DNA from: Methylomicrobium sp.
GTDB taxonomy: Bacteria; Pseudomonadota; Gammaproteobacteria; Methylococcales; Methylomonadaceae
Length of the DNA stretch: 13,895 nt
NCBI GenBank assembly: GCA_007135635.1
Contig: SLIO01000461.1
Location: 1 to 13,895 of the forward strand
Direction: 5' to 3'
The stretch's first letter is position 1; each line of letters starts with the position of its first letter. Both the position numbers and the translations under genes were made by a program. Under the pieces are notes generated by a model. That model saw nothing but the letters and a program-made list of their open reading frames with translations, made no database searches and was not told the origin of the DNA. Of this stretch, positions 1-12,963 are shown one piece after another.

Positions 1-47
1 CTACACGGACGTATTCACGGCGTCCTGCCAAGCGAGTGACCGAACCC
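1..47 (-). repeat. Palindromic element copy A, partial at window edge
   Basis: This is the right-hand end of a dispersed palindromic element whose other end lies outside the window. Positions 24-47 closely match the right terminal arms of the copies at 9375-9398 and 11961-11983, and the inner part at 9-26 contains the same GTATTCACGGCGTCCTG stretch as 9362-9378. It lies 48 nt after the flgL stop codon, in the same orientation relative to that gene as the other two copies have to theirs. On the flgL-sense strand it would be the 3' untranslated region of the long flg transcript. GGACG and CGTCC at 8-12 and 21-25 can form a short stem. No simple T-tailed terminator is visible between flgL and this element. 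Confidence 0.8.
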
Positions 48-9147: not shown

Positions 9148-9244
9148 TGGCTTTTCCTCCCAATTATTACTGTGAAAGTTCGTAGATATAGACCCTTTAT
9201 CTAATTTTTCGATATACGGCGCTCGACAGAACAAATGCCGGTTC

Positions 9245-9403
9245 CGGAGAGGGTGCGGTTGCTCGACCGACAGGCGTCGGCGGCAGGGCAGATTTTTGCT
9301 CCTGCAAAATCTGCATTCACGCCATCCTTGGCGTTCGATCCGCCGTCGAGCCTACAGAGACGTATTCACGGCGTCCTGTCGGGCGAGTGACCGCACCCCT
9401 CCG
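9245..9403 (-). repeat. Palindromic element copy B, complete, between flgC and flgD
   Basis: The element has terminal inverted arms at 9251-9274 and 9375-9398 (21 of 24 positions pair). They extend to 9245 and 9403 through CGGAG/CTCCG with one extra base, and weakly further to CAAATG 9232 / CATTTG 9419. Inside are two hairpins with TCCT loops on the plus strand. The element fills most of the 306-nt flgC-flgD gap, starts about 50 nt after the flgC stop, and would be transcribed within the flg operon. No direct target duplication and no coding sequence are visible, so it resembles a REP- or MITE-like repeat, not an insertion sequence. The remainder of the gap (9148-9244 and 9404-9453) shows no recognisable promoter. 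Confidence 0.88.
9288..9334 (-). promoter_or_regulatory. Two GGA-loop hairpins in copy B, possible CsrA/RsmA sites
   Basis: On the flg-sense strand, the first hairpin (9319-9334) has stem ACGCC/GGCGT around the six-base loop AAGGAT. Its CAAGGATG fits the RsmA/CsrA consensus CANGGAYG at every defined position, and the loop fits the ARGGAU hexaloop known for CsrA. The second hairpin (9288-9314) has an 11-bp stem with one bulged base and a loop AGGA closed by GC pairs. It presents GGA but does not fit the longer consensus. Binding is inferred from sequence only. The hairpins are about 140-190 nt upstream of the flgD start, so direct blocking of the flgD ribosome site is unlikely; an effect on message stability would be more plausible. 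Confidence 0.4.
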
Positions 9404-9453
9404 CCACCAGAGAACTTTCATTTGCCGGGGCGATTGCCAGGCCTTCATGAACG

Positions 9454-9870
9454 TTACTGACCTATTCTCAAAGTTTGCAAAACCAATTCTTTAGCGGTAT
9501 TGAGCACTTCGACATTATTTTGATATGAGCGTGAAGCCGACATCATATTGGCCATTTCTTCGACGATGTTGACATTGGGCTTATAGATATAGCCGGATTG
9601 ATCGGCCATCGGATGATTCGGCGCATACTCCATGACCGTCGGCGCCTGACTTTCGACTACACCCAAGACATTAACCTTGCTCGCGGCATTTTGCTTATCC
9701 ATGATGTTTTTCAATTCTGCCGCAAATACCGGTTGCCGCGATTTATAGGTTTGATCAATGCTGCTGCTAACGCTGTTGGCGTTGGAAATATTACTGGCAA
9801 CCAGATTCAACCTCAGCGACTGGGCATTCATGCCGCTACCGGAAATATCGAAAATACGGAATGAGCTCAT
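9454..9870 (-). CDS. flgC: FlgC, proximal rod protein
   Basis: FlgC is a proximal rod subunit next to the MS ring and export gate. The 138-residue product is close to the usual 134. The N-terminus MSSFRIFDISGSGMNAQSLR and the NLVASNISNANSV motif (about 22-34) are the FlgC form of the rod signature. The C-terminus has the conserved YIYKPNVNIVEEMANMMSAS and ASRSYQNNVEVLNTAKEL. It starts 2 nt after the flgB stop, and its ribosome binding site AGGAG lies inside the last codons of flgB, so the two are probably translationally coupled. The gene is followed by copy B of the palindromic element, about 50 nt after its stop. Confidence 0.97.
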   Translation of the reverse strand: MSSFRIFDISGSGMNAQSLRLNLVASNISNANSVSSSIDQTYKSRQPVFAAELKNIMDKQNAASKVNVLGVVESQAPTVMEYAPNHPMADQSGYIYKPNVNIVEEMANMMSASRSYQNNVEVLNTAKELVLQTLRIGQ

Positions 9871-9872
9871 AA

Positions 9873-10265
9873 TTACTCTCCTTTAATGGCCGACATTAAA
9901 CCCGAAAATTTACCGTTCAGAAAACGCAGACTGGCTTGGTACTGCACGGCATTCTCCGCATACTTGGCCTGCTCGACATGGCCTTCTACGGTATTACCGT
10001 CCAACGAAGCCTGATTCGGAGTGCGATACATCATATTTGCACCCAAGAGCGTATTGCTTGGTGCGATATGTCCGGCCCGTGTGCGCTCCACCGGCAATGC
10101 ATCCGGTATCGCGGTTTTTAGAATCGATTGAAAATTAAGATCCCGTGCTTTATAGCCAGGAGTATCAGCATTAGCCAGATTGGAGGCAAGCACCTCTCCG
10201 CGTTTTTCGCGCAATGCCAATGCCTGGGAATGAACACCTAATGCTTTATCGAAATTAATTGTCAT
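9873..10265 (-). CDS. flgB: FlgB, proximal rod protein
   Basis: FlgB is a proximal rod subunit that connects to the FliE/MS-ring base. The 130-residue product is slightly shorter than Salmonella FlgB (about 138). The N-terminus has FDKALGVHSQALALREKRGE and then VLASNLANADTPGYKARDL (about 25-43), the typical FlgB form of the rod signature. The C-terminus, QAKYAENAVQYQASLRFLNG, is the partner helix. The ATG follows GAGAGGCTATTTCC, and the predicted sigma-54 start point lies about 25 nt upstream. It is the first gene of the eleven-gene rod-hook operon. Confidence 0.96.
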   Translation of the reverse strand: MTINFDKALGVHSQALALREKRGEVLASNLANADTPGYKARDLNFQSILKTAIPDALPVERTRAGHIAPSNTLLGANMMYRTPNQASLDGNTVEGHVEQAKYAENAVQYQASLRFLNGKFSGLMSAIKGE

Positions 10266-10300
10266 GGAAATAGCCTCTCACACTTGTTGCTTATTAAACA

Positions 10301-10316
10301 AGCACGTCTTATGCCA
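10301..10316 (-). promoter_or_regulatory. Sigma-54 promoter of the flgB operon
   Basis: Read on the minus strand, the site is TGGCATAAGACGTGCT. It has GG at -24 and GC at -12 with exactly 10 bases between, and matches TGGCA and TGCW of the sigma-54 consensus. The predicted start, near 10290, leaves a leader of about 25 nt that still holds the flgB ribosome site. A sigma-54 promoter here fits the flgB promoters known in Vibrio-type hierarchies, where an enhancer-binding activator (FlrC or FleQ type) is required. Confidence 0.8.
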
Positions 10317-10359
10317 CTAGCTATTTCTACTGATAAATCATTATTTTACAAATAAAGGC

Positions 10360-10373
10360 GTCAATTTTTTCAC
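10360..10373. promoter_or_regulatory. FleQ/FlrC-like box, proximal
   Basis: GTCA and TCAC separated by six bases match the Pseudomonas FleQ consensus half sites (GTCA, six bases, TGAC) at 7 of 8 positions; the middle bases differ from it. The site is about 45 bp upstream of the -24 element of the flgB promoter. The assignment is by similarity only. Confidence 0.3.
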
Positions 10374-10433
10374 GGCCTCGGTAAATCCGCCCGGCAATAT
10401 CTAACCGCCGACCTTATGATGTTGCGGAAGTGG

Positions 10434-10489
10434 TGAATGGTGAATGGTGAATGGTGAATGGTGAATGGTGAATGGTGAATGGTGAATGG
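10434..10489 (+). repeat. Eight tandem copies of TGAATGG
   Basis: Eight perfect 7-bp units run without interruption, preceded by a partial TGG. The array lies in the 363-nt gap between flgB and cheR, 118 bp upstream of the flgB -24 element and between two FleQ-like boxes. Perfect tandem heptamers can gain or lose units by slipped-strand mispairing. Each unit changes spacing by 7 bp, about two thirds of a helix turn, so copy number could alter how an activator bound at the distal box reaches the promoter. It is probably not transcribed from the flgB promoter. Confidence 0.97.
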
Positions 10490-10498
10490 ATAAAGCTT

Positions 10499-10512
10499 GT
10501 CAACCCCTTGAA
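10499..10512. promoter_or_regulatory. FleQ/FlrC-like box, distal
   Basis: GTCA and TGAA separated by six bases match the FleQ half sites at 7 of 8 positions. The box lies within a larger symmetric stretch, AGCTTG at 10494 and CAAGCT at 10521, with TTGTCAA repeated directly at 10497 and 10517. It stands about 185 bp upstream of the -24 element, a distance usual for sigma-54 enhancers, and on the far side of the heptamer array. Confidence 0.35.
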
Positions 10513-10591
10513 TATATTGTCAAGCTATTTTTCAGTTAGACGAGCCTTGACATTAAACTTAAACCTGAAAAAGTAGAAAAGTAAACGCAAG

Positions 10592-10622
10592 TAAAAATAT
10601 AGGCGATTACCAATGTTTCGCC
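10592..10622 (-). terminator. Possible weak terminator after cheR
   Basis: On the cheR-sense strand, GGCGA and TCGCC (10618-10622 and 10602-10606) form a 5-bp stem with an 11-base loop, followed by TATATTTTTAC. It begins 6 nt after the cheR stop codon. The stem is short and the loop large, so termination may be incomplete, and some cheR transcription could run into flgB. Confidence 0.4.
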
Positions 10623-10628
10623 GGCGCA

Positions 10629-11450
10629 TCAGCCGATTTTTCGATAATACCGACCGCGTTCGCCGCGCACCGTTTCAAATCCGAACACAGTTGCAGGCAG
10701 CACCTCGCTGCTACTCAAGAAAAGAAATCCGCCAGGTTCGATAGCTTGCGACATACGCGTCAAAATATCTTTTTTCATCGCGTCGGAAAAATAAATTAAT
10801 ACATTCCTGCAAAAAATCACATCGAAGCGTCCCAATGTCGAAAAAGGCTTGAGGAGGTTCAACTGCTGGAATTGTACCCGGGCGCTAATTTTCGGTTTAA
10901 CACGAAAACCCTCTTCAACTGGTACAAAAAAACGCTTTTGCTGCCTAGCATCAACACCTCGTAACAATGCCGCCTCCGAATACACTGCCTGTCTAGCTTG
11001 TCTGAGCACGGTTTCCGAAATATCGGTTCCGACAATACTTACCGACAATGATTTACCCTGACTTTTGATCATATCTTCGACGCACATGCTGATCGAATAA
11101 GGCTCCTGCCCCGAAGAACAAGCCGCCGACCAGACTTTAATCGTGCTCCGTTTGACCGCAAGCGACGGTAAAACGGCGCCAGCCAATTCAGCAAAATGAC
11201 TTTCATCGCGAAACCAAAATGTTTCGTTGGTCGTCATCGCATCAATGGTTGCAACCTTAATTTTTGACGATACAAGAGACTCGCTTTGCAGTACGTCAAG
11301 CAAATCTGAAAACGATCTCAAACCGAAGCGCGGCAACAGCCCAGACAAGCGATTCCTCACTAAATATTGCTTACTATCGGACAAAACAATACCGCATGCT
11401 TGAACGAGAAACTGCTGAAAACATTTAAATTCCTGCTGCGTCATTTCCAT
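10629..11450 (-). CDS. cheR: CheR, chemoreceptor glutamate methyltransferase
   Basis: CheR transfers methyl groups from S-adenosylmethionine to glutamates of methyl-accepting chemoreceptors, tuning their sensitivity opposite to CheB. The 273-residue product has the N-terminal helical domain (about 1-72), the TTNETFWFRD motif (73-82), the SAM-binding motif VWSAACSSGQEPYS (106-119), an acidic SAM contact in GTDIS (D143) and CRNVLIYF (214-221). These are the standard features of an active CheR. No TPR extension is present, so it is the simple form. The start is ATG 11450 or ATG 11444; neither has a strong ribosome site (only GGAAAA upstream). It lies between cheV and flgB as in Vibrio and Pseudomonas, and is separated from cheV by a large repeat. 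Confidence 0.95.
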   Translation of the reverse strand: MEMTQQEFKCFQQFLVQACGIVLSDSKQYLVRNRLSGLLPRFGLRSFSDLLDVLQSESLVSSKIKVATIDAMTTNETFWFRDESHFAELAGAVLPSLAVKRSTIKVWSAACSSGQEPYSISMCVEDMIKSQGKSLSVSIVGTDISETVLRQARQAVYSEAALLRGVDARQQKRFFVPVEEGFRVKPKISARVQFQQLNLLKPFSTLGRFDVIFCRNVLIYFSDAMKKDILTRMSQAIEPGGFLFLSSSEVLPATVFGFETVRGERGRYYRKIG

Positions 11451-11605
11451 TAGTTATTTTTCCAATTAAGCATTCATTCCCTTTTGAAAAAAAGGTTTAA
11501 AAAAACAGAGCGCCTCTAATACCCTTTTTTTCTGATCGCCGGCAGACACTCTAGGCGAAGCATGAACGCTTACACCCAAACTTGGCGATTCAAGCATAAT
11601 GATTA

Positions 11606-11632
11606 TTATCTGCTATATCGATCATTTACTTA
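11606..11632 (-). promoter_or_regulatory. Possible sigma-28 (FliA) promoter upstream of cheR
   Basis: On the minus strand TAAG, a 15-base spacer and GCAGATAA resemble the FliA consensus TAAA-N15-GCCGATAA with one difference in each half. It would give a leader of about 150 nt before cheR. The rest of 11451-11670 is AT-rich with A and T runs, and shows no other clear signal. This could explain how cheR is expressed despite the repeat between it and cheV. Confidence 0.3.
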
Positions 11633-11707
11633 GGAACGAGCATGAAATAACTTCGACAACTGTTGGAAGGGGTTTCGGTGGCTCGACTGACAGGTGTCGG
11701 CAGCAGG

Positions 11708-11805
11708 GCAGATTTTTGCTCCTGCAAAATCTGCATTCACGCCATCCATAGCGTTTGCAGATTTTTGCTCCTGCAAAATCTGCATTCACGCCATCCATAG
11801 CATTT
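11708..11805 (-). repeat. 49-bp tandem duplication in copy C
   Basis: Two 49-bp units start at 11708 and 11757 and differ at one base near their ends (GCGTTT against GCATTT); a third begins at 11806. Each unit holds the same pair of hairpins as copy B: an 11-bp stem around TCCT and a shorter stem around TCCA (plus-strand sense). On the minus strand, the shorter stem uses a U-G wobble where the plus strand would have an unpaired C and A, which hints that the minus-strand RNA is the structured one. Confidence 0.95.
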
Positions 11806-11880
11806 GCAGATTTTTGCTCCTCGGCAATTGCTCCTGCATTGCCCTAATACACGCCATCCATGGCGTAATGCAAAATCTGC
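11806..11880 (-). repeat. Unit inserted in the loop of another unit
   Basis: The third unit is split by 48 bp (11822-11869) placed exactly after its TCCT loop bases. The outer stem halves 11806-11817 and 11870-11880 still pair. The insert is itself a unit of the same design: a stem GGCAATTGC/GCATTGCC around TCCT, then ACGCCA/TGGCGT around TCCA. Its first stem differs in sequence from the other units but keeps full pairing and even the same single bulged T. On the minus strand, CATGGATG in the second hairpin fits the CsrA/RsmA consensus CANGGAYG. The whole can fold as a junction with two inner arms. Confidence 0.88.
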
Positions 11881-11885
11881 ATTCA

Positions 11886-11950
11886 CCCAGCGCCTAAATT
11901 CCATAATCCATTGTTTATGGTTAACTATCTTAGATAATTTAGGTGCTGGG
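11886..11950. repeat. 15-bp inverted repeat within copy C
   Basis: CCCAGCGCCTAAATT (11886-11900) pairs with AATTTAGGTGCTGGG (11936-11950) with one G-T wobble. The loop region holds smaller palindromes, CCATAA/TTATGG and TATCT/AGATA. Copy B has no counterpart, so it may be a separate sequence inserted in the element. No T-run follows on either strand. Confidence 0.85.
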
Positions 11951-12009
11951 TTCAGGGCGTCCTGTCAAGCGAGTCACCGAACCGCCGTAAAGCCAACTAC
12001 TTGTAAAAG

Positions 12010-12963
12010 TTATTTTGTGCATATTCCTTGCTGGTCATTTAAGGTATGAAATATCTGCAAACGTTTTTGAATGGTTTTGACCAGCTCGTCCGGTTCAAAT
12101 TTCGCCAGGAATTCGTCGGCACCAACCTTCTGCACCATCGACGAATTAAACACACCGCTTAGCGAAGTATGCAATACCAAATAGATATGCTTCAATTTAG
12201 GGTCTTTTTTGATCTTGGTCGCCAGCGTATAACCGTCCATACGCGGCATTTCCACGTCGGAAATAATCATCGCGTAATAGCTTTCCAAGTCAACATCATC
12301 CTGAACCAAACCCGACAAATGCTCCCAGGCTTCCAAACCGTCTTTCAACACATCGTATTGAAGATTGAGTTGATCACAAACTTTTTTGATTTGATTTCTG
12401 GCAACCATAGAATCATCAACGATCAATACTCGATCGCCTACACCCGACACATCTTTATCAATCACCTCTTCGCTGGCTTGTTCGCGCAAGCCGATGACTT
12501 CCTTCATTACTTTTTCAACATCAATTACCTCGATCAAATCGCCATCGACCTCGGTTACCGCCGTTAAATAACCTTCCCGACCCAAACCCGAAGGTGGCGC
12601 TTTCACTGAGCCCCAACCGATATTGATAATCCTATCCACCGAACCCACCAAAAAGCCCTGTATGGTTCTGTTGTATTCGGTGACGATGACATAAGATTTC
12701 TCGTCTCGATCTATCGGCCTCATGCCGATCGCCAGTGACAAGTCCAAAACCGGAATCGTCTTTCCGCGCAAATGCGCGACGCCGCATATTACCGTATGCG
12801 ACTTCGGAATTTGCGTCAAAGCCGGGCATTGAATCACCTCTTGAACTTTAAACACATTGATACCGAATCGCTGACGCCCGCCAAGCTTAAACAACAATAA
12901 CTCAAAGCGATTATGCCCTGCCAGCTGAGTACGCTGATCAACCCCATCTAAAATTCCAGCCAT
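12010..12963 (-). CDS. cheV: CheV, CheW-receiver chemotaxis coupling protein
   Basis: CheV couples chemoreceptors to the CheA kinase through a CheW-like domain and adjusts this coupling by phosphorylation of its receiver domain. I choose ATG 12963, because GGAG at 12975-12972 then has an 8-nt spacing and the product begins MAGILDGVDQRTQLAGHNRF, as CheV proteins do; the in-frame ATG 12969 and GTG 12972 are too close to that site. The product is 317 residues. The CheW-like domain covers about 15-160. The receiver domain covers about 175-300, with acidic pair D183/D184, phosphorylation site D236 in SDVEMPRMDGY, T266 and K288. All key residues are present. The gene heads cheV-cheR; a TATAAT at 13049-13044 has no good -35 partner. 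Confidence 0.95.
   Translation of the reverse strand: MAGILDGVDQRTQLAGHNRFELLLFKLGGRQRFGINVFKVQEVIQCPALTQIPKSHTVICGVAHLRGKTIPVLDLSLAIGMRPIDRDEKSYVIVTEYNRTIQGFLVGSVDRIINIGWGSVKAPPSGLGREGYLTAVTEVDGDLIEVIDVEKVMKEVIGLREQASEEVIDKDVSGVGDRVLIVDDSMVARNQIKKVCDQLNLQYDVLKDGLEAWEHLSGLVQDDVDLESYYAMIISDVEMPRMDGYTLATKIKKDPKLKHIYLVLHTSLSGVFNSSMVQKVGADEFLAKFEPDELVKTIQKRLQIFHTLNDQQGICTK

Follow-up and report, generated by a model that had tools for sequence, protein, structure and literature searches.

The window analysed here is a 13,895-nucleotide contig of Methylomicrobium sp. (SLIO01000461.1, assembly GCA_007135635.1), which carries on its minus strand a flagellar (flg) gene cluster together with the chemotaxis genes cheR and cheV, and which holds three copies, A to C, of a family of short palindromic elements (Table 1). 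Copies B and C lie between these genes and display hairpins with GGA in their loops, which an earlier note, made from the sequence alone, had likened to targets of the regulator CsrA/RsmA. We compared the window with five genomes of the same genus (G008, G092, G125, G165 and G167, hereafter the genus mates) and with wider genome samples, and we consider below whether the loops may be sites for CsrA/Rsm that are carried about by transposition. The host genome is 2.78 Mb over 498 contigs and 79% complete, and several element copies sit at its contig ends, copy A among them.

Copies B and C are mobile elements

Measured from anchors on either side, the spacer from flgD to flgC is 304 nt long in the window, compared with 11-22 nt in all five genus mates. 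The cheR-cheV gap is 610 nt long here, against 213 nt in G167, 218 in G092, 180 in G165, 182 in G125 and 535 in G008, and copy C is absent from it in every one of them. Because both sites are empty in the five genus mates and 3-nt flanks bound the copies, identical for copy B (TTA/TTA) and differing in one base for copy C (TTA/TTG), we conclude that both copies are mobile, non-autonomous elements which duplicated 3 nt of their target on insertion. They are recent insertions and no conserved flagellar device; their reading as conserved flagellar or chemotaxis elements was rejected, both sites being empty in the genus mates. Identical 3-nt flanks (TAA or TTA) recur in 20 of 23 element end pairs, where re-pairing of the ends expects 11 and reached a maximum of 17 in 2000; three of the 23 pairs (66, 945 and 1475 nt) may each combine ends of two separate elements, as is certain for the pair of 945 nt. 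That stretch (L236:7993-8938) had been a candidate for an autonomous copy and was rejected as a fragment beside a full element, and no transposase for the element ends was found among the end pairs in the loci examined, no wider enzyme search having been made. When set against the empty sites, both elements proved longer than the earlier note had drawn them, the exact ends of copy B being our own reading of the compared sequences. In the cheR-cheV gap, G165 has a 21-nt match to an element end and G125, by eye, a similar stretch.

The family is abundant in the genus. Five complete genus genomes each contain 55-108 sites of HP1, one of the hairpins described below (≤2 mismatches), and matches to copies B or C form 32 clusters in 400 kb of wino1, or one per 12.5 kb, versus none over 400 kb from a relative lacking the unit. 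By eye, the strand order of the wino1 copies along the chromosome shows no simple two-replichore pattern. In being short, dispersed, polymorphic between species, flanked by a 3-nt duplication and devoid of any gene that we could find, the elements resemble miniature inverted-repeat transposable elements (MITEs); imperfect terminal inverted repeats are present in copy C and its relatives, although not clear in the copy B type. They differ from MITEs in that they contain hairpin modules which share a fixed loop motif, were inserted separately and lie one inside another, and their parent insertion sequence was not found among the end pairs examined.

This nesting is visible at several levels. A common host module consists of an outer stem, P1, of ~22 bp around a second stem, P2, and a hairpin, P5, and it measures 99 nt when it lacks the 49-nt unit (six of seven) and 148 nt when it contains one (25 of 34), a difference of 49. 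The unit itself has a constant layout of HP1 (27 nt), a linker of 5 nt, a second hairpin, HP2 (14 nt), and a tail of 3 nt, with the TCC of HP2 at a fixed offset in 230 of 247 HP1 sites. Within copy C lies a further, unrelated palindrome, whose family (mostly 64-65 nt) has an identical 4-nt flank in 58 of 80 listed rows, each element being listed on both strands, and is present in one and absent from the other member of two orthologous pairs (L131/L145 and L121/L166). The copy C palindrome is thus, to judge from its flanks and relatives, a separate mobile palindrome with a 4-nt duplication. Inspection by eye of Marinobacter copies (L036, L062, L069, L080 and L087) showed one more RTCCNT motif on the 5' side of HP1; in these copies the outer stem is longer and encloses an additional hairpin, whose loop reads ATCCNT.

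Table 1. Elements, nested modules and genes of the window, with the basis or context of each entry.
Feature	Coordinates	Strand	Context or basis
Copy A, 3' part of another element (P5 side and P1 right arm)	1..47	+	Contig left end; direct repeat family D4 with 9352-9398
Copy B, whole mobile element, 284 nt	9170..9453		flgC-flgD gap, at flgC stop codon; anchored comparison with five of five genus mates
Copy B flanks	TTA 9167-9169, TTA 9454-9456		Right TTA is the flgC stop codon
Host module, copy B	9252..9397	+	Alignment of elements, pair counts
P1 outer stem, copy B	9252-9274 with 9375-9397
P2 stem, copy B	9276-9284 with 9339-9347
P5 hairpin, copy B	9353-9364		Reads TACAGAGACGTA, GGA lost
49-nt double-hairpin unit, copy B	9288..9336	-	Layout and predicted fold
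Parts of copy B unit	HP1 9288-9314, linker 9315-9319, HP2 9320-9333, tail 9334-9336	-	Loops on minus strand: AGGA (HP1), AAGGAT (HP2)
Copy C, whole mobile element, 395 nt	11633..12027		cheR-cheV gap; absent there in five of five genus mates
Imperfect terminal inverted repeats, copy C	11632-11659, 12001-12028		Inverted repeat I6, 75%
Copy C flanks	TTA 11630-11632, TTG 12028-12030
P1 arms, copy C	about 11671-11694 with 11961-11983	+	Enclose nested modules; repeat families D1, D4
49-nt unit 1, copy C	11708..11756	-	Period-49 tandem repeat 11708-11821, 98% matches
49-nt unit 2, copy C	11757..11805	-	Same tandem repeat
Third HP1 copy, GGA double hairpin nested in its loop	11806..11880	-	Sequence; analogous to orthologous pair L084/L167
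Nested double hairpin in third HP1 copy	HP1-like 11823-11843, HP2-like 11851-11866
Second, unrelated 65-nt palindrome, CCCAGC...GCTGGG	11886..11950		TTCA on both sides (11882-11885, 11951-11954)
flg cluster, cheR, cheV		-	flgB- and flgC-type rod proteins, flgD, cheR and cheV by Pfam; remaining flg names are our own reading

Loops, stems and spacing of the hairpins

Every GGA-loop hairpin that the earlier note had named was found where it had been placed, on the minus strand. The loop reads AAGGAT at 9319-9334 in copy B, AGGA at 9288-9314, 11708-11734, 11757-11783 and 11823-11843, and ATGGAT at 11851-11866 and likewise at 11739-11754 and 11788-11803, the stem being weakened in the latter two. 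These hairpins fall in repeat families D1, D2, D7 and D8. Exact matches to CANGGAYG number two, again as the earlier note had it: CAAGGATG (9319-9334) and CATGGATG (11851-11866). Its statement that the GGA loops lie on the gene-sense strand holds for the hairpins that it listed but not for P2 and P5 of the host module, which read GGA on the plus strand. In the predicted minus-strand fold of copy B the loop GGAs at 9327 and 9302 are unpaired with a probability of 1.0 each, and the four remaining minus-strand GGAs with 0.0-0.67. For copy C the loop GGAs at 11859, 11834, 11820, 11796, 11771, 11747 and 11722 are predicted to be unpaired with probabilities of 1.0, 0.96, 0.68, 0.71, 1.0, 0.71 and 0.35, and the four remaining ones with 0.01-0.49. 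The z-scores of the minus-strand folds are -6.9 (9245-9403) and -10.3 (11630-12035).

We asked how the loops compare with their stems across copies, a check that the earlier note had proposed; the loops keep ANGGA, with the N free, and the stems change with compensation. With the anchor for HP2 set outside its loop, a 6-nt loop closed by 3 bp or more is formed at 110 of 140 sites (the other 30 were left out of the loop count), and on the TCC strand these loops read A in 104, T in 108, C in 108, C in 109, a free N, and T in 107; the N is T, A, C and once G. P5, anchored on its flanks, reads TACA-N-GGA-N-GT in 81 of 101 copies and keeps GGA in 93, and its N takes all four bases (T, C, A or G in a set of 65 copies). 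In unit-free elements P2 has GGA in all 25 listed loops and, by our reading, A-N-GGA in 23. The core of HP1, TGC-TCCT-GCA, stays constant under nine different 5' arms; the arms pair at 7 or 8 of 8 positions in 208 of the 235 sites counted away from locus ends. Over an alignment of 34 elements (150 columns) the most variable column is the N of P5 (ACA-N-GGA), at 1.88 bits, and the N of HP2 is one of seven columns above 1 bit; stem covariation gave 53 both-side cells, against a shuffled mean of 21. The CsrA consensus obtained by systematic evolution of ligands by exponential enrichment (SELEX) is RUACARGGAUGU, with ACA and GGA invariant and mostly hexaloops in which AC is paired to GU, as given in a review (PMC7652899), and P5 is close to it. 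In 400 kb of wino1 sampled at even spacing NGGA is the commonest tetraloop class on stems of ≥6 bp, with 19 distinct stems and a median class of 4; at the same stem length the unit-free relative has 2 such stems (rank 48) and G243 has 9.

The two loops of a module are also held at a nearly constant distance. From GGA to GGA it is 22 nt in the unit and 21 nt in five of seven unit-free hosts (19 and 20 in the others), and an unrelated module of G243 again has 22 nt. Successive loop GGAs of copy C are 22, 11, 21, 22, 21 and 22 nt apart, those of copy B 22 nt. Counted over unit loci as distinct stem-pair families, spacings of 18-25 nt occur in 20 of 40 on the same strand and in 2 of 41 on opposite strands (p = 3.5e-6). 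The bridging range of a CsrA dimer is 10-63 nt and best above 18, according to the same review (PMC7652899), and the spacings of unit and host fall within it. Among other repeats (L153, L211, L072, L124, L089, L101 and L217-L219) we observed two long perfect GGA-loop hairpins 24-25 nt apart, on stems unrelated to those of the unit.

Several counts bear on the strand. G-T wobble pairs of HP2 favour the GGA strand (minus here) by 38:7, or 25:7 among distinct sequences (p = 0.002), and those of HP1 do so by 26:5 over all copies. P1 wobble pairs lean the opposite way, 109:13 (66:13 without the dominant types; elements with fewer than 12 of 22 positions paired were left out), toward the strand on which P2 and P5 read GGA. 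Because the two biases are opposite within one kind of element, a mutational strand bias is disfavoured. We take the wobble bias as support for a folded GGA strand, although no proof of RNA, since single-stranded DNA would give the same sign. The unit tends to have its GGA strand on whichever strand is locally richer in G (108:62), with loci under 5 kb or with many N, and then 21 of 191 of weak skew, left out. Of 210 copies, 36 at an edge, 13 far from genes and 5 spanning were dropped; beside the others the flanking genes are co-directional with GGA sense in 57, co-directional with GGA antisense in 32, convergent in 35 and divergent in 32, and 159 3' ends and 153 5' ends of genes face the copies.

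Spread and insertion of the 49-nt unit

The exact 27-mer of HP1 occurs in at least 103 stretches of named genomes, among them Methylotuvimicrobium, Marinobacter, Microbulbifer, Thalassolituus, Pleionea and Natronospirales; the first five belong to Methylococcaceae, Marinobacteraceae, Microbulbiferaceae, Oceanospirillaceae and Pleioneaceae, so at least five gammaproteobacterial families are represented. With up to 2 mismatches it is present in 19 of 201 genomes of an order sample, and in 2 of 397 of a phylum sample, namely this genome and G243 of the same class. Neither copy C nor one Microbulbifer unit with its flanks had a match in plasmids, phages or E. coli (the last by a near-mode search), and the exact 27-mer had none in viral contigs.

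The junctions of the unit bear on how it inserts. Between the orthologous loci L084 (strain 5G) and L167 (G092) the whole difference is a single variant of the 49-nt unit, placed in the AGGA loop of a hairpin with a cut AGG^A and no duplication, and in the host elements the junction with the unit is the ANGGA loop of P2. We built 34 clusters from 137 distinct junctions, the 17 of 247 HP1 sites without TCC at its offset having been dropped. Base -1 is G in 30 of the 34 clusters and base +1 is A or G in 31, with GG^A itself in 10; when the two flanks are joined, the target forms a hairpin beyond shuffled flanks in 6 of 34 at p ≤ 0.05 (overall p = 0.006).

Some insertions lie in or beside recognizable genes. 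At L055 an IS66 transposase gene is interrupted by the unit, with Pfam matches on both sides, and IS66-like genes of three genomes share this insertion point (HDHW^KPYF or similar), the unit being found there in four places (L055/L198, L199, L197 and L207), the assignment resting on Pfam for L055 and being made by eye for L197, L199 and L207. At L200 and L201 the unit immediately precedes the maturase domain (Pfam GIIM) of a group II intron, and its junction TTGG^AAA resembles the IS66 one. In a Pleionea tRNA array (L099, 5063-5202) it stands between tRNA-Val and tRNA-Gln, at a place where a further tRNA would fit, and ARAGORN calls no tRNA there.

Possible readers of the GGA loops

We propose, with a probability of about 0.5, that the GGA-loop modules are recognised at the RNA level by CsrA/Rsm. 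Each nested module has two A-N-GGA hairpins ~21-22 nt apart on one strand, HP2 with HP1 in the 49-nt unit (minus here) and P2 with P5 in the host element (plus); one CsrA/RsmA homodimer would bind both loops of a module, and the modules may have been kept as RNA for that reason. A transcript running through a copy would then become a Csr/Rsm-binding RNA, that is, a transposable decoy and possibly a local modifier of its own transcript. Read-through RNA of the flg operon would contain one such loop pair from copy B, and that of the cheR-cheV gap three or more from copy C. The mobility, the nesting, the paired loops with their free N and their spacing, and the compensated stems are observed; transcription of the copies, binding of CsrA, titration or an effect in cis, and selection for any of these are what we infer. 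The part of the earlier note that likened the loops to CsrA/RsmA sites has gained ground, in that ANGGA is kept, the N is free and the spacing is paired, while the link that it drew to flagella and chemotaxis has weakened.

A number of observations weigh against this proposal. No csrA gene was found in this 79%-complete genome; csrA is present in all five genus mates, in all 18 other unit-bearing genomes of the order sample and in 13 of 13 further unit-bearing genomes, but also in 184 of the 201 genomes of that sample, and being common anyway its presence beside the unit therefore says little. P5 of copy B has lost its GGA. The stem of HP1 is long and stable, unlike the SELEX ligands of CsrA, which in the excerpt of PMC7652899 mostly have four or fewer pairs. 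With stems of ≥7 bp NGGA does no more than tie for first place (6 stems, like AAA); its rank in G243 is 9 or 3. A looser test, with GGA or TCC anywhere at the loop on stems of ≥8 bp, found no excess (14 of 81 versus 9 of 69 in the control). HP1-type stems take part in 12 of the 20 same-strand spacing families, leaving 8 without them by our count. The wobble bias of HP1 among distinct sequences is 8:5 and not significant, and that of the unit counted by lineage, column and type is 28:15 (p = 0.066). The sense bias is weak, 41:24 per orthologous site (p = 0.046), and may follow the bias toward the G-rich strand, and convergent and divergent contexts are about equally frequent. Finally, an Rsm protein bound AnGGA loops of single-stranded DNA in vitro, as described in an excerpt of PMC9928087, so that recognition as RNA and as single-stranded DNA cannot be separated by sequence alone.

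The last point leads to the strongest competitor, an enzyme that mobilises DNA by working on folded single strands and for which the GGA-loop hairpins would be recognition or target structures, read and cut in the loop (AGG^A), with the likeness to CsrA sites a coincidence. It accounts for the loop insertion that distinguishes L084 from L167, for hosts of 99 and 148 nt joined to the unit at the P2 loop and for the bases at the junctions, and it fits both the preference of the GGA strand for the G-rich strand and the occurrence of GGA loops on both strands. The hairpin signal of the joined targets points the same way, although 28 of the 34 miss p 0.05 and most junctions are not GG^A. Such an enzyme alone does not predict a free N or a constant pairing at 21-22 nt in modules with unrelated stems, and host elements that move with a 3-nt duplication bear the same loops; we regard it as a serious but less likely explanation. 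Support for the CsrA reading has grown and is real, though indirect, and recognition of the same loops by this enzyme competes with it.

Alternatively, the copies could be ordinary palindromic DNA of the repetitive extragenic palindromic (REP) or MITE kind, whose loops are alike through few recent ancestors and are read by no protein. Copies in this genome are indeed 72-100% identical over matched parts, and REP dimers inside longer palindromes are reported in an excerpt of PMC3733652. We consider this improbable, because the loops are constant across genera while the stems change with compensation, because P2, P5, HP1 and HP2 are unrelated stems with one loop, and because the N inside the motif varies most.

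Still less probable is a CsrA-controlled regulatory device of the flagellar and chemotaxis operons that is kept in the region through repeated insertion. Copies B and C do show GGA loops on the sense strand, and the flgB-cheR gap of four of the five genus mates contains another copy, of three kinds (loci L284, L285, L286 and L287; one shared by G167 and G125, and one each in G165 and G092), and all of them have TCC on the plus strand, as do the copies of the window; element pieces also lie beyond cheV in G165 and G092 (L288, L292). Matches in the region are denser than the wino1 average, at one per few kb, the figure of one per 3.2 kb being an overstatement, with ten loci overlapping in pairs. 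Yet copies B and C are missing from their own sites in the genus mates, G008 has no copy anywhere in the flagellar-chemotaxis region, neither G008 nor the window has one in the flgB-cheR gap, and the G092 copy there lacks the unit, so that its GGA loops are antisense. Copies are moreover scattered beside unrelated genes, and seven clusters in ~30 kb where 2.4 are expected make a slight excess, noticed only afterwards and among copies that partly share their ancestry. The region appears to attract or keep elements somewhat above average, with no single copy kept. Between flgB and cheR the window has a perfect 7-nt tandem array, TGGTGAA, of 8.4 copies (10431-10489), and related heptamers (GAGGAAA or GGTGAAA) form arrays or traces of differing lengths at this place in the five genus mates. 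Least credible of all is another GGA- or AGGA-reading factor in place of CsrA, such as sequestration of ribosomes by loops (AGGA, AAGGAU) that resemble Shine-Dalgarno cores, which does not account for the constant A ahead of N, the C-G pair that closes the loop or the paired spacing.

Among known systems the decoy RNAs CsrB/CsrC and RsmX/Y/Z come close, in that one strand likewise bears several hairpins with ANGGA in the loop, spaced so that a CsrA dimer can bridge them. The elements described here differ in being dispersed mobile DNA, with tens of units per genome in both orientations and no dedicated gene, and an Rfam scan of the window gave no match up to E = 1, the CsrB/RsmZ families included. 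By eye the unit ends have no GTAG/CGTC tag; the unit starts with GCAG or ACAG and mostly ends with GTC, ATC or TTC. In the mitochondria of Allomyces, double-hairpin elements nest in loops. Mitochondrial double-hairpin and other repetitive hairpin-forming elements are similarly small units spreading in a genome (excerpt of PMC2800124), whereas the present unit is bacterial, has one conserved loop motif and a fixed length of 49 nt, and occurs in several bacterial families. REP, REPIN and CGTC-tagged repeats are also short palindromes, often paired and sometimes inside longer palindromes, but in the excerpt of PMC3733652 they are defined by their tag, and the unit by contrast has a constant ANGGA loop on a variable stem. 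Insertion sequences that target REP palindromes share insertion into palindromes (PMC1525189), but the unit is geneless and itself a hairpin pair. For mobile modules with paired ANGGA loops a literature search returned no earlier description among the matches listed, subscription journals being mostly outside its coverage.

If instead the loops serve a DNA enzyme, a 49-nt mobile unit with a hairpin-reading enzyme would be of interest in itself. The CsrA reading, for its part, would explain why unrelated repeat modules have one loop in common. A wider and more tentative form of it, which we hold somewhat less likely than the recognition itself, is a superfamily of transposable Csr/Rsm dimer sites across many gammaproteobacteria, in which independent modules would share a selected ANGGA pair at the reach of one dimer, the smallest being the loop-inserting 49-nt double hairpin. 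Each transposed copy would then add CsrA-binding sites, and copy number would set the decoy capacity and tune the level of free regulator. Mobile DNA would in this way plant decoys of a global regulator, raise their number and nest them in one another, and bacteria would owe part of their global post-transcriptional regulation to transposition.

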